Source of the DNA: Paraconexibacter algicola
Lineage (GTDB): Bacteria; Actinomycetota; Thermoleophilia; Solirubrobacterales; Solirubrobacteraceae
Direction: 5' to 3'
Length of the DNA stretch: 64,000 nt
Assembly (NCBI RefSeq): GCF_003044185.1
Contig: NZ_PYYB01000002.1
Span: forward strand, 434,001-498,000
Shown: piece by piece, positions 26,011 to 50,935 of the stretch
How the letters are laid out: the number at the start of each line of letters is the position of its first letter
Numbering within the stretch: position 1 is the first letter of the stretch
Translations under genes and position numbers: made by a program
Notes under the pieces: generated by a model
What the model saw: the letters and a program-made list of their open reading frames with translations, nothing else
Told to the model about the DNA's origin: nothing
Database searches by the model: none

Positions 26011-26700
26011 GTGGTCAGCACGCGTCCCGGTCCCACCCCGCTGCCGTCCTCGGCGCCGCAGGACCCGCCGAAGCCCCGGCTGCGCGGGGTCTTCCACCAG
26101 TGGTCGTTCTTCGCGGCGGTCGTGTTCGGCGTCCTGCTCGTCGGCGCGGCCGACTCCACGCGCGCCACGGTCGGTGCGTCGATCTACGCGGCGGGCGTCT
26201 GCGGCCTGTTCGGCATCAGCGCCCTGTACCACCGCCGCACGTGGGCGCCCGCGCAGCGGCGCTGGATGCGCCGGGCCGACCACGCGATGATCTTCGTGTT
26301 CATCGCCGCGACGTACACGCCGATCGCGCTACTGGTCCTCAGCGAGCCGCTGCAGACGATCATCCTCGCGATCATCTGGGCGTGCGCGGCGGGCGGGGTC
26401 GCGCTGCAGCTCATCTGGGTCGACGCGCCGAAGACGGTGCAGGCCCCGATCTACATCGCGATGGGCTGGGTGTCGATCGCGACGATGCCGCAGATCCTCG
26501 ACCGGCTCGGCGTGCTGAGCGTGGTCGGGCTCGCGGTCGGCGGCGTGCTCTACACCGCCGGCGCGATCGTCTACGCGCGCGGGCGCCCGGACCCGCGGCC
26601 GCTGGTCTTCGGCTACCACGAGATCTTCCACGTCGCCGTGGTGCTCGCGGCGCTCTGCCACTACGCGGTCATCGCGTTCGCCGTGCTGCCGCGCGGCTGA
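26011..26700 (+). CDS. Hemolysin III / PAQR-family membrane protein
   Basis: A 229-aa seven-TM protein of the YqfA/HlyIII family. It has conserved SALYHRRTW in the first loop, DHAMIFVFIAATYTP in the third helix and a C-terminal HEIFHVAVVLAALCHY, the His/Ser/Asp metal-binding set of PAQR proteins (probable hydrolase-like membrane site). GTG 26011 has TAGCCT six bases upstream. The last 40 bases overlap the convergent MFS gene. Confidence 0.9.
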   Translation: MVSTRPGPTPLPSSAPQDPPKPRLRGVFHQWSFFAAVVFGVLLVGAADSTRATVGASIYAAGVCGLFGISALYHRRTWAPAQRRWMRRADHAMIFVFIAATYTPIALLVLSEPLQTIILAIIWACAAGGVALQLIWVDAPKTVQAPIYIAMGWVSIATMPQILDRLGVLSVVGLAVGGVLYTAGAIVYARGRPDPRPLVFGYHEIFHVAVVLAALCHYAVIAFAVLPRG

Positions 26701-28088
26701 GGGGTCGCGGGCGCGGGGACGCGCCGCAGCAGCAGCGCGACGCCGGCCGCGAGGAGGACGGCGACGATCGCCACGAGGTAGCCGCGGTGGGCGGCGTCGA
26801 GCGCGTCGGCGGGCGCAGGCTCCCCGACGACGGCGACGAGCAGCGCGGTCCCGATGACGGCGCCGAACTGGCGGAAGGCGCCGTTGATGGCGCTCGCCGC
26901 ACCGAAGCGGTCGGCGGGCACGTCGGCGACGGCGGCGGCCCCGAAGGTCGGGAAGACGAGCCCGATCGCGATGCCGTTGAGGACCATGCCCGGCAGCCAG
27001 TGGCCGACGTAGTCGGGCTCGGCCGGCGCGGAGCCGAGCACGAGCAGGGCGGCGACGTAGACGAGGCAGCCCGGGACGATGACGGCGCGGTGCCCGAAGC
27101 GGTCGGCAAGCCGGCCGGCGGGCCCGGAGACGACGACGGTGGCGAGCGGGCCGGGCACGGTGCCCAGTCCGGCGTCGAGGACGCTGTAGCCCCAGATCTG
27201 CGTGAGGAACAGGATGTTCCCGAGGATCACGCTGAAGAAGGCGGTGGCGACGAGCAGCGTCCCGATGCTGCCGAGCCGGAACGAGCGGATGCGCATCAGC
27301 GCGGGGTCGATCACGGGGACCGGGTGGGTCAGGCAGCGCCGCACGACGACGGCCAGCGCGACGGTGGCGATCGCGAACGACGCGGCGCTCTCGGCGCCGG
27401 TCCAGCCCCATTCGCGGCCCTCGACGAGCGCGAGGGCGAGGGCCCCGAGGCCGACGACCGCGATCGCGGCCCCGAGGAGATCGGGGCGGCCGCTGGCGTG
27501 CTCGTCGCGCGACTCGCGCAGCACGCGGGCACCGAGGACGACGAGCAGCGCGGTGACCGGGAGGTTGACGAGGAAGATCCAGCGCCAGTCGGCGACCTCG
27601 ACGAGCAGGCCGCCCAGCGGGGGGCCGCAGGCGGCGGCGAGCGCGGCCGCGGCGCCCCAGATGCCCACGGCGGTGGCCCGCTCCTCGCGCGGGAACTCCG
27701 GCAGCACGAGCGCGAGCGAGACCGGGGCGATGATCGCGGCGGCGACCCCCTGCAGGACGCGGGCGGCGACGAGCGTCTCCCAGGTCGGGGCGATCGCGCA
27801 GAGGAGGCTCGTGACGCCGAACAGCACGACGCCGACGAGGAACGCGCGCTTGCGGCCGACGCGGTCGGCGAGGAGCCCGGCGGGCACGAGCAGGGCGGCG
27901 ATGACGATGAAGTAGGCGTCGAGGATCCACGACAGCTCGGAGCGGCCGGCCTCCGGGAAGGAGGCGGCGATGTCGGGGAACGTCGTGTTGACGATCGTCG
28001 TGTCGAGGAACGCCAGGAAGCCGGCGCCGGAGGCGATCGCGAGGATCGCGGACCGGCTGCGGGCGGGTGTCGGTGCGTCGGTCGTCAT
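26661..28088 (-). CDS. MFS drug-efflux transporter (DHA2/EmrB-QacA type)
   Basis: A 475-aa, probably 14-TM major facilitator. Motif A-like GLLADRVGRKRAFL, motif C-like region GPPLGGLLVEVADWRWIFLVNLP, and FLDTTIVNTTFPDIA in helix 1 (motif D1) mark the DHA2 multidrug family. The ATG at 28088 is chosen because the longer ORF runs through the operators. Two inverted repeats upstream and a divergent HxlR gene indicate repressor control and induction by a toxic or redox-active compound. Confidence 0.92.
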   Translation of the reverse strand: MTTDAPTPARSRSAILAIASGAGFLAFLDTTIVNTTFPDIAASFPEAGRSELSWILDAYFIVIAALLVPAGLLADRVGRKRAFLVGVVLFGVTSLLCAIAPTWETLVAARVLQGVAAAIIAPVSLALVLPEFPREERATAVGIWGAAAALAAACGPPLGGLLVEVADWRWIFLVNLPVTALLVVLGARVLRESRDEHASGRPDLLGAAIAVVGLGALALALVEGREWGWTGAESAASFAIATVALAVVVRRCLTHPVPVIDPALMRIRSFRLGSIGTLLVATAFFSVILGNILFLTQIWGYSVLDAGLGTVPGPLATVVVSGPAGRLADRFGHRAVIVPGCLVYVAALLVLGSAPAEPDYVGHWLPGMVLNGIAIGLVFPTFGAAAVADVPADRFGAASAINGAFRQFGAVIGTALLVAVVGEPAPADALDAAHRGYLVAIVAVLLAAGVALLLRRVPAPATPQPRGSTANAMTA

Positions 28089-47212: not shown

Positions 47213-47605
47213 CTAGGCGTGGTCCTTGCGCTCGGAGATGAGCGCCTTGAGCTTCTCGGCCACCGACGGGGCGGCCTTCGCGAGCTTCTTCGCGTCCCAG
47301 CGGTCGAGCGTGACGAGCAGCATCGACGAGGTCGCGGTGACCGTCGCGCTGCGCTGGCTGCGCTCCAGGACCCCCATCTCGCCGATGATGTCGCCCGGCC
47401 CGAGCTCGGCGATGACGGTGCCGCCGCGCTCGACCTTGGCGGTCCCCTCCTCGATCGCCAGGAGCTCGTAGCTGTAGTCCCCCTCGCGCACGAGCTCCTT
47501 GCCCGCCGGAACCGAGACCTCCGCGGCGAGCCCGGCGACCGCCTCGAGCTCCGCCTCGCTGAGGTCCGCCAGGACCGGGATCCCCTTCAACCGTGCTGCG
47601 TCCAC
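47213..47605 (-). CDS. Stand-alone cyclic-nucleotide-binding domain protein
   Basis: A 130-aa protein consisting of one cNMP-binding (CRP-type) beta-barrel. The phosphate-binding cassette GDIIGEMGVLERSQRSATV keeps the Glu and Arg needed for cAMP binding. No HTH or enzyme domain follows, so it may sense cAMP and act on a partner, or be an anti-type regulator. GGGAGA precedes the GTG. It is divergent from the MFS-cNMP-patatin gene 120 bp away, which has the same domain. Confidence 0.88.
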   Translation of the reverse strand: MDAARLKGIPVLADLSEAELEAVAGLAAEVSVPAGKELVREGDYSYELLAIEEGTAKVERGGTVIAELGPGDIIGEMGVLERSQRSATVTATSSMLLVTLDRWDAKKLAKAAPSVAEKLKALISERKDHA

Positions 47606-47725: not shown

Positions 47726-50700
47726 GTGGGGACCCGCAGGGACGAGATCAGCACGCCGGTCGGCGGCCACGCGCGCGCGACCGCGTCGGCGGGACGGGTG
47801 CTGGTCGTCTCCTCGCTCGGGGCGACGCTCGCGTTCGTCGACGCCACCGTCGTGAACGTCGCCTTCCCGGACATCGCGCGCGACCTCGGCGGCCGCGACC
47901 TCGCGACCGTGTCCTGGGTCCTCAACGCGTACAACATCGTCTTCGCCGCGTTCCTCGTCACCGCGGGGCGCGTGGCCGACCTGCTCGGGCGCCGGCGGCT
48001 GTTCAGCGCCGGGATCGTGCTGTTCACGGGGGCGTCGGTGCTCTGCGCGCTCGCGCCCGGGCTCGGGTGGCTGATCGCCGCGCGGGTCCTGCAGGCGCTC
48101 GGCGCCGCGATCGTCGTGCCCGCCTCGCTGGCGCTCGTCGTCCACGCCTACCCGGCCGAGGAGCGCGCCCACGGCGTGGCGCTGTGGAGCGCGATCGCGG
48201 CGCTCGCCGCCGGGCTCGGCCCGACGATCGGCGGCCTGCTGGTCGAGCTCTCCGGCTGGCGTCTGGTGTTCCTCGTGAACCTCCCGATCGGCGCCCTGGC
48301 GCTCGTGCTCGCCCGGCGCACCCTGGTGGAGAACCGCGCCCCCGGCCGCCGCAGCCTCCCCGACCTCGCGGGGGCGTGCTGGCTGGCGGCGGCGATCGCG
48401 CTCGTGACGCTCGGGCTCGTCCGCGGCGAGGGCTGGGGCTGGACCGACCCGCGCACGCTCGCGAGCTTCGCGCTCGCCGCGGGGCTGCTGGCCGTCGTGC
48501 TGCGGCGCTGCCGCTGGCACCCGTCGCCGATGCTCGACCTCGACCTGCTGCGCGACCGCACGACCGCGATCGCGAACCTGCTGACGCTCGTCGGGGCGGC
48601 GGGCTTCTACGCGTACGTGCTCTGCAACGTCCTGTTCCTGACCGCGGCGTGGGACTACACCGTGCTCGAGGCGGGCCTCGCGCTCACGCCCGGCCCGTTC
48701 GTCGCCGCCGCGGTGGCACGCCCGGCCAGCCGCGTCGCGGAGCGGCTCGGGCCCGGACCGGTGCTCGCGGTCGGTGCCGCGACCTGGGCGGCCGGGGTGC
48801 TGCTGCTCGTGGAGGCCGTCGGGCCCGATCCGGCGTTCGTGCGCGCCTGGCTGCCCGCGATCCTCGTCCTGGGGGTCGGGGCGGGGATCACGTTCCCGGT
48901 GGTCGGGGCGACGGCGGTCGCGGGCGCCCCCGGGGACCGCTTCGGCAGCGCGACGGGGCTGAACGCGGTCGCCCGGCAGCTCGGCGCCGTGCTCGGCGTC
49001 GCGCTCGTCGTGGCCGTCCTGGGGGTGCCCGAGGGTGCCGCCCCGGACGTGACGCCCGCGTTCGACGACGGCTGGCGCCTGGCCGGACTGTGCTTCGTCG
49101 CGACCGCGCTCGGCGCCGTCCTGCTCGGGCGGGCCGTGCCGCTCGCGCCCGCCGCGGCACCGGCCGCGGCCCCGGTCACGCCCGCCGTCGCGCCGCGCGC
49201 CCGCGCGCCCCGCCCGGCCGCCCCCGCCCCGGTCGCCGCCGCCCCGGACGCCGACGACGACGCGCTCGCCGGCGTGGGCCTGCTCGCCGACCTCCCGGCG
49301 GACGTGCGCGAGCAGCTGCGCCCGCTGCTGCGTCGCCGGCTCGTCCGCGCCGGGGAGACGGTCCTGAGCCAGGGCGCACCGGCCGACGCCCTGCTGCTCG
49401 TGGCCTCCGGGCGGCTGGACGTCGTCAAGGACGGGCAGCCCGCCGGCGCCGTCGGACGCGGCGCGGTCCTGGGCGAGCTCGGCCTCCTGACGGGCGCGCC
49501 CCGCAGCGCCACCGTCGTCGCCCGACGCGACAGCGAGCTGCTCGAGCTGCCGCGCGCGGCGTTCCTCGCGCTGCTGGACCGCGAGCGGAGCGTCGAGCGG
49601 GCGCTGCTGCGCACGCTGGCCGCCCAGGTCGCCGCGCTCCCCGCCGCCCCGGCTCCCGCCTCCCCCGCGCGCTCCGGGACACTCGCGGTCGTCGAGCGGC
49701 ACCCCACCGGCCTGCACGACGCGCTGCTCGACGCGGTCGCGCACGAGCTGACCGGGCACGGGCCCGTCGCGCGCCTGGGGCCCCGGGACGGGGGCACCGA
49801 CCCGCGCGCCCGCCTGGACGCGCTCGAGCGCACCCACGGCACCGTCGTGCTGGCCGTGCCCCACGACGCGCCCGAGGCGTGGCGGACCTTCGTCACCCGG
49901 CACGCCGACCGCACCGTGCTGCTGGTCGACGCGGACCGGGACCCCGACCCGGCCGACGCGCGCACCGCGGGCGCCGGCCACCTCGTGCTCGTCGACGCCG
50001 CCCCGGGAGGCGCGGCGACGCGCTGGCGGGCCGCGCACCCCGGCTGGGCCCACCACCACGTCCGGCGCGCGGACCGCTCCGGCACGCTCGGGCGCGCCGC
50101 CCGCCGCATCGCGGGCACCTCGGTCGGCCTCGTGCTGTCCGGTGGCGGCGCCCGGGCCCTCGCCCACATCGGCGTGCTGGAGACGCTCGCGGCGCACGGC
50201 GTCGTGGTCGACCGCGTCGGCGGCTGCTCGTTCGGGGCGTTCGTCGGGGCACTGCTCGCCGACGGCCGCGGCCCCGCGGAGATCGACGCCGTCTGCTTCG
50301 AGGAGTTCGTCCGACGCCGCCCCGCCTCCGACTACACGCTCCCCCGCGTGGCGCTGGCGCGCGGACGGCGGCTGCGCGCGCTCGGCGACCGGCTGCTCCC
50401 CGGGCTCGTCGAGGACCTCCCGCTGAGCTTCTTCTGCAACTCCGCCGACCTGCAGAGCGGCGAGCTGCGCATCCACCGCGACGGCCCGGTCGCCGACGCG
50501 CTGCTGGCCAGCTCCGCCGTCCCCGGGCTGCTGCCGCCCGTCGCCAGCCACGGGCGGCTGCTCGTCGACGGCGGCGTCCTCAGCAACCTGCCCGTCCTGG
50601 AGATGCGCCGGTCGGGCGAGGGGCCGGTCATCGCCGTCGACGTGTCCTCGCGCTTCGATCCGAGCACCGCGCGCCCGCGCACGACCCGCCCGCGACGCGG

Positions 50701-50935
50701 TCGCGCACCCGAGGACGCCGACACGCTCCCGGCGATCGGCGACACGCTCACCAGCGGCCTGCTGCTGGGCAGCGTGGCGGAGCTCGAGGCCAACCGGCGC
50801 GCCGCCGACCTGCTCATCGAGCCGCGCCCCGACGGCGTCGGGCTGCTCGAGTTCCACCAGCTCGACCGGGCGATCGCCGCGGGCCGCGAGGCCGCCGAGC
50901 GCGCGCTCGCGGCCGCCCCGCCACCGGGGCGCTGA
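47726..50935 (+). CDS. MFS transporter - cNMP-binding - patatin-like phospholipase triple fusion
   Basis: A 1069-aa protein. Residues about 24-470: DHA2-type MFS (FVDATVVNVAFPDIA; GRVADLLGRRRLF; GPTIGGLLVELSGWRLVFLV). About 470-512: Ala/Pro linker. About 515-640: cNMP domain with cassette GELGLLTGAPRSATV (Glu584, Arg593). About 650-790: a linker domain as in bacterial NTE-like proteins. About 798-1069: patatin lipase with oxyanion loop SGGGARALAHIG, nucleophile Ser835 in GCSFG and Asp948 in DGG. All parts look intact. Probably a membrane lipase gated by cyclic nucleotide and joined to a lipid/drug flippase-like pump (inference). GTG start with TAGACT nine bases upstream. Confidence 0.92.
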   Translation: MGTRRDEISTPVGGHARATASAGRVLVVSSLGATLAFVDATVVNVAFPDIARDLGGRDLATVSWVLNAYNIVFAAFLVTAGRVADLLGRRRLFSAGIVLFTGASVLCALAPGLGWLIAARVLQALGAAIVVPASLALVVHAYPAEERAHGVALWSAIAALAAGLGPTIGGLLVELSGWRLVFLVNLPIGALALVLARRTLVENRAPGRRSLPDLAGACWLAAAIALVTLGLVRGEGWGWTDPRTLASFALAAGLLAVVLRRCRWHPSPMLDLDLLRDRTTAIANLLTLVGAAGFYAYVLCNVLFLTAAWDYTVLEAGLALTPGPFVAAAVARPASRVAERLGPGPVLAVGAATWAAGVLLLVEAVGPDPAFVRAWLPAILVLGVGAGITFPVVGATAVAGAPGDRFGSATGLNAVARQLGAVLGVALVVAVLGVPEGAAPDVTPAFDDGWRLAGLCFVATALGAVLLGRAVPLAPAAAPAAAPVTPAVAPRARAPRPAAPAPVAAAPDADDDALAGVGLLADLPADVREQLRPLLRRRLVRAGETVLSQGAPADALLLVASGRLDVVKDGQPAGAVGRGAVLGELGLLTGAPRSATVVARRDSELLELPRAAFLALLDRERSVERALLRTLAAQVAALPAAPAPASPARSGTLAVVERHPTGLHDALLDAVAHELTGHGPVARLGPRDGGTDPRARLDALERTHGTVVLAVPHDAPEAWRTFVTRHADRTVLLVDADRDPDPADARTAGAGHLVLVDAAPGGAATRWRAAHPGWAHHHVRRADRSGTLGRAARRIAGTSVGLVLSGGGARALAHIGVLETLAAHGVVVDRVGGCSFGAFVGALLADGRGPAEIDAVCFEEFVRRRPASDYTLPRVALARGRRLRALGDRLLPGLVEDLPLSFFCNSADLQSGELRIHRDGPVADALLASSAVPGLLPPVASHGRLLVDGGVLSNLPVLEMRRSGEGPVIAVDVSSRFDPSTARPRTTRPRRGRAPEDADTLPAIGDTLTSGLLLGSVAELEANRRAADLLIEPRPDGVGLLEFHQLDRAIAAGREAAERALAAAPPPGR

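Follow-up and report, generated by a model that had tools for sequence, protein, structure and literature searches.

Known systems related to the gene studied here include the lipases of the NTE family and the DHA2 exporters of the major facilitator superfamily (MFS). The gene lies in a 64,000-nucleotide stretch of the Paraconexibacter algicola genome (contig NZ_PYYB01000002.1, positions 434,001 to 498,000; hereafter the window) and encodes, in one chain, an MFS transporter, a cyclic-nucleotide-binding (cNMP) domain and a patatin lipase. In the NTE family, PNPLA7 hydrolyses lysophospholipids and is anchored in the membrane by one helix (PMC5704489). Among the exporters, EfpA contains three lipids, and the authors of that study proposed that it is a flippase comparable to MFSD2A, which transports lysophospholipids (PMC10802681). 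The window protein shares with NTE and PNPLA6–PNPLA7 the order of cNMP domain, probable NTE_Ploop-type domain and patatin as well as the Ser-Asp dyad motifs, but it has one cNMP domain instead of the three of PNPLA7, and a 14-helix transporter instead of a single anchoring helix. Its whole MFS part is like EfpA and the DHA2 exporters in fold and sequence, although EfpA lacks the lipase and cNMP parts. MFS-acyltransferase fusions of the LplT-Aas type act in lysophospholipid recycling; here the likeness is conceptual only (an MFS plus a lipid-modifying enzyme), the enzyme of the window protein being a patatin-type hydrolase, and no acyltransferase or acyl-ACP synthetase domain is found among its Pfam matches. 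The bacterial patatins PlpD and RssA have the same fold and catalytic motifs but are stand-alone proteins, and the RssA equivalog cut-off is far from reached (90.2 versus 272 bits).

The same architecture is presumably that of Mycobacterium tuberculosis Rv3728 and Rv3239c; our comparison was made with other mycobacterial members, from many Mycobacterium genomes, which have the same full-length combination of MFS, cNMP and patatin and whose intact copies are ∼43–47% identical to the window protein over most of its length. Rv3728 has been listed among MFS efflux proteins, with a link to rifampicin (PMC6300501), again with drug efflux (PMC3816664), as an esterase/lipolytic enzyme with efflux and lipid annotation (PMC10865251) and, in a microarray table, as a ‘probable conserved two domain membrane protein' (PMC3908365). 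Our search of the open literature turned up no paper that brings patatin and major facilitator together with cyclic nucleotide-binding and fusion, nor any functional work on the protein as a whole; the architecture thus looks annotated but little studied. The initial annotation of this DNA, made from the sequence alone, implied that the combination is rare. This proved wrong, as the family is widespread in actinobacteria, has a single origin and includes mycobacterial members that earlier publications list as efflux proteins and as esterases. The window protein is a further member of a known, poorly understood actinobacterial family, its architecture is not new, and as a single find in the window the fused gene is ordinary.

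One reading frame with five modules

The fused gene is an open frame of 1069 codons without internal stops, whose product consists of a 14-helix MFS module, a disordered tether, a cNMP-binding domain, a degenerate ParA/MinD-like domain and a patatin domain, in that order (Table 1). The Pfam models MFS_1, cNMP_binding and Patatin each exceed their curated cut-offs, within the one frame and in the order that defines the fused family. The guanine-plus-cytosine (GC) content of the gene by codon position is 0.83/0.57/0.98, and at the third position it stays at 0.97–0.98 in every module, tether included, with one phase over the junction. These data, together with full-length homologues in other genomes, bear out the claim of a single polypeptide. 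Long shadow frames are frequent in the window, which has a GC content of 75%, and a 1515-codon antisense frame over the fused gene was rejected as one of these high-GC, non-coding frames: coding is assigned to the sense frame, because its third-position GC is steady and homologues resemble one another as proteins when read in it. A scan for promoters and terminators found none.

The MFS_1 match of the transporter (E 3.5e-46; best stretch 31–247) scored 158.2 bits against a cut-off of 33.4. An AlphaFold2 model of the whole protein, built on 52 aligned sequences, had a mean predicted local distance difference test (pLDDT) score of 86.5 and a predicted template modelling (pTM) score of 0.83. It places 14 membrane helices across residues 22–464, all N-terminal to the tether, with an MFS fold whose closest solved structure is M. 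tuberculosis EfpA with bound lipids (TM-score 0.84–0.86 by target length, 0.84 for 8x6x; 27% identity in the fold alignment). The 14 helices and a motif C of the form GPxxGG are those of DHA2 (EmrB) exporters. The transporter call of the initial annotation is upheld, but we name the module DHA2-like, because the curated cut-off of TIGR00711 (DHA2/EmrB) was missed by 3 bits (226.9 versus 230.2); two homologues pass it (L010, 271.1 bits; L013, 244.8 bits). Since the N terminus of known MFS proteins is cytoplasmic and the number of helices is even, the C-terminal half is predicted to lie on the same side, in the cytoplasm. A second, stand-alone DHA2-like MFS transporter is encoded at 26685–28058 (−) of the window; its identity with the fused protein's MFS part is 46%.

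Within the tether, pLDDT falls below 50 at residues 479–510, and identity with seven compared homologues is 14–36%. The cNMP_binding match that follows (residues 538–619, E 8.5e-20) is modelled as a beta-roll and retains the Glu and Arg of the phosphate-binding cassette; E584 and R593 occupy the positions given in the initial annotation, within GELGLLTGAPRSA. The next domain (∼645–798), in whose model strands and helices alternate, had been described as an NTE-like linker. That description is probably right by way of the relatives: within the linker alignment, 32 of 54 sequences match Pfam NTE_Ploop with E-values of 0.01 or lower, the best being 5.8e-8. The window protein's own linker gave no NTE_Ploop match and shows no intact P-loop in its sequence, but modelled separately (pLDDT 93) the domain resembles ParF and MinD (Z 12.9, 148 residues, 2.8 Å).

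The lipase part matches Pfam Patatin at residues 802–959 (E 1.8e-25), and its best solved fold is PlpD (TM-score 0.79–0.83 by target length, 0.81 for 5fya). S835 in GCSFG and D948 in VDGG, both correctly located by the initial annotation, form the GxSxG and DG(G/A) dyad that, downstream of a cNMP domain, characterizes the NTE family.

Table 1. Features of the fused gene and of related genes near it or near its homologues (window positions, or positions within a named homologous locus)
Feature	Position	Strand	Description	Basis
Whole fused gene	47726–50935	+	1069 amino acids; GTG start; stop at 50933–50935	Full-length homologues
MFS transporter module	47789–49135	+	Residues 22–470; DHA2/EmrB/EfpA-like; 14 transmembrane helices	Pfam MFS_1; model; EfpA fold match
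Ala/Pro-rich tether	49136–49270	+	Residues 471–515; predicted disordered	Low pLDDT; low identity among homologues
cNMP-binding domain	49271–49645	+	Residues 516–640 (Pfam 538–619); E584 codon 49475–49477; R593 codon 49502–49504	Pfam
NTE P-loop-like domain	49658–50119	+	Residues 645–798; ParA/MinD fold; intact P-loop absent	Pfam matches of relatives; model; ParF match
Patatin lipase domain	50120–50914	+	Residues 799–1063; GGGAR oxyanion motif 806–810; S835 codon 50228–50230; D948 codon 50567–50569	Pfam; PlpD fold
Stand-alone cNMP-binding protein	47213–47605	−	130 amino acids; divergent from fused gene	Pfam cNMP_binding (3.8e-14)
Stand-alone cNMP-NTE-patatin gene	L006:4120–5895	+	Near fused gene	
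Stand-alone cNMP-NTE-patatin gene	L008:1537–3363	+	Near fused gene	
Stand-alone cNMP-NTE-patatin gene	L041:1696–3492	+	Near fused gene	
MFS+cNMP protein without lipase	L040:9160–10959	+	Near fused gene	
MFS+cNMP protein without lipase	L053:4088–6067	−	Near fused gene	
MFS+cNMP protein without lipase	L042:1–930	+	Near fused gene	

Distribution and single origin of the fusion

The 74 loci found by scanning genome contigs come from Mycobacterium, Nocardioides, Knoellia, Phycicoccus, Microbacterium, Actinotalea, Frankiaceae and Solirubrobacterales, and most match almost the entire protein at 38–52% identity. Both the full length and the fusion point are shared by more than 50 homologues from other genomes. 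The gene is present in several copies in mycobacteria, M. szulgai having four, and the window protein is a single copy. When 40 genomes related to that of the window were compared, a full-length match was found in one, a member of the same family (G020), and in none of the seven congeners; two same-family genomes in this set have a stand-alone cNMP-patatin protein. The fused protein is therefore widespread in Actinomycetota yet patchy among near relatives. A search of a plasmid collection gave no match at E 1e-60, and a viral structure library yielded nothing beyond generic MFS and patatin matches.

To trace the fusion, 95 transporter domains were placed in a tree, in which the fused ones grouped together (53 fused and two stand-alone rows) with a Shimodaira–Hasegawa-like approximate likelihood ratio test (SH-aLRT) support of 99, and because they form one clade the fusion has a single origin. 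The MFS part of the window protein is nested in this clade, on the Solirubrobacterales branch, so an independent recent fusion in this genome was rejected. Both stand-alone transporters inside the clade belong to Patulibacter (L057 and L052) and apparently represent two later losses of the lipase half; in the P. minatonensis genome no match to the lipase half was found at the limit used. The tree of the lipase half is compatible with a single origin, with weak support around the window protein, whose lipase half is a long branch. Pairwise identities of the four modules co-vary (r 0.83–0.92), a correlated divergence that reflects common descent and is alone no proof of interaction between modules.

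Two homologues stand apart. A full-length fused copy (L039:1218–4319, +) lies on a contig of a metagenome-assembled genome labelled Burkholderiales, owing either to horizontal transfer or to wrong binning of the contig. In Mycobacterium genavense (L063:5791–9041) the fused gene is scattered over several reading frames and looks disrupted.

A proposed link between transport, hydrolysis and sensing

Residue conservation was scored over 52 fused homologues. S835 and R593 are present in all 52, D948 in the 51 that reach that position and E584 in 50; the transport-type residues D39 and R120 are invariant, as are the Gly and Pro positions of GPxxGG. With the key residues almost invariant, selection maintains transporter, nucleotide site and lipase jointly. 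The initial annotation had suggested that lipid hydrolysis, transport and second-messenger sensing are coupled. Such a link is plausible because the three residue sets are conserved jointly, lipid-bound EfpA is the closest transporter of solved structure and eight class III cyclase domains are encoded in the genome (along with five cNMP domains, two of them at this locus). The single frame, the folds, the conserved residues and the common origin of the fusion are observed directly, while substrate, transport direction, hydrolysis, cyclic-nucleotide binding, coupling and control by cyclic AMP (cAMP) are inferences.

With moderate confidence, we propose that the protein is an amphiphile or lipid exporter coupled on the cytoplasmic side to an NTE-type lysophospholipase with a cyclic-nucleotide-sensing cNMP domain. 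The EfpA/DHA2-like module would carry a lipid or another amphiphile, most likely exporting it or moving it from one leaflet to the other, and the flexible cytoplasmic tether would keep the NTE-type unit (cNMP domain, degenerate ParA/MinD-like domain and patatin hydrolase) beside it. The S835/D948 dyad most likely cleaves a (lyso)phospholipid or related acyl ester on the cytoplasmic side, and the cNMP domain most likely binds a cyclic nucleotide and so would set the place or timing of hydrolase action. Lipids are favoured as substrates because the nearest solved transporter, EfpA, is lipid-bound and a proposed flippase, and because PNPLA7 hydrolyses lysophospholipids. A more specific version, which we consider unlikely, has an EfpA-like flippase and an NTE-type lysophospholipase working on one substrate pool, with cAMP-switched, coupled flipping and deacylation of lysophospholipids at the actinobacterial membrane, often with a stand-alone NTE-type partner next door. 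Coupling of transport to hydrolysis, if real, would bring signalling by cyclic nucleotides, the turnover of membrane lipids and efflux together in one molecule, and the conserved residues identified here make it directly testable.

Several observations weigh against this proposal. In Patulibacter the transporter occurs on its own, so transport needs no lipase half, and the transporter also matches drug-efflux families. Two mycobacterial fused paralogues (L036 and L071) have Ala at the E584 position and may leave cyclic nucleotide unbound. For PNPLA7, cNMP analogues moved the protein towards lipid droplets and left hydrolase activity largely unchanged (PMC5704489), which makes cAMP control of catalysis an unsafe assumption.

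The strongest alternative, less probable than the proposed coupling but a serious contender, is that the MFS is an ordinary multidrug exporter that merely anchors an NTE-type lipase in the membrane, replacing the single helix of eukaryotic NTE and sharing no substrate with the lipase. The good scores of the MFS on EmrB, LfrA, TcmA and similar efflux models, the listing of Rv3728 with drug efflux (PMC6300501, PMC3816664), the one-helix anchor of PNPLA7 (PMC5704489) and the occurrence of both halves as stand-alone proteins all point this way. The invariance of D39, R120 and GPxxGG in the 52 fused proteins indicates, however, that the MFS has been retained as a functional transporter and does more than anchor the lipase, and the pairing has a single origin and persists across the phylum. 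Invariant transport residues and a single origin do not establish a shared substrate.

A further alternative, which we consider unlikely, is that the cNMP domain is a structural or membrane-positioning part that has lost cyclic-nucleotide sensing. The absence of the key Glu in two homologues and the unresponsive catalysis of PNPLA7 (PMC5704489) would fit, but the cassette Glu is kept in 50 and the Arg in all 52 fused proteins, and the eight cyclase domains of the genome also speak for sensing. Lactate import, proposed in a proteomics paper for M. smegmatis MSMEI_5033 and its homologue Rv3728 from induction on L-lactate (PMC10747050), is very improbable for the window protein, which in fold and family resembles EfpA and the DHA2 exporters. 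Finally, an assembly or sequencing artefact joining two genes, including a frameshift near residue 470, where the initial annotation had allowed for a sequencing error, is refuted by the same junction in the >50 homologues and by codon-position GC in one phase, with no evidence in its favour.

cNMP proteins in the neighbourhood

Other cNMP proteins recur near the fused gene. In the window, the GE...RSA cassette of the divergent 130-amino-acid cNMP protein looks intact, and by its position the protein may be linked to the fused one. Nine of 58 loci with the fused gene also contain, no more than ∼2 kb away, a stand-alone cNMP-NTE-patatin gene, which in three Solirubrobacterales loci is directly upstream and on the same strand; besides those in Table 1, the loci concerned are L013, L030, L049, L059, L064 and L074. 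The lipase-free MFS+cNMP neighbours, present in several loci, are another transporter-sensor fusion. These recurring neighbours, taken as raw counts, may hint at a shared signal. No operon partner beyond cNMP-type proteins emerged when flanking frames were clustered, the clusters being mostly shadow frames and position-variable genes. One further neighbour (L017:9111–10958, −) carries a cNMP domain after an N-terminal part without a Pfam match, and in the window an RDD membrane protein is encoded near the fused gene.
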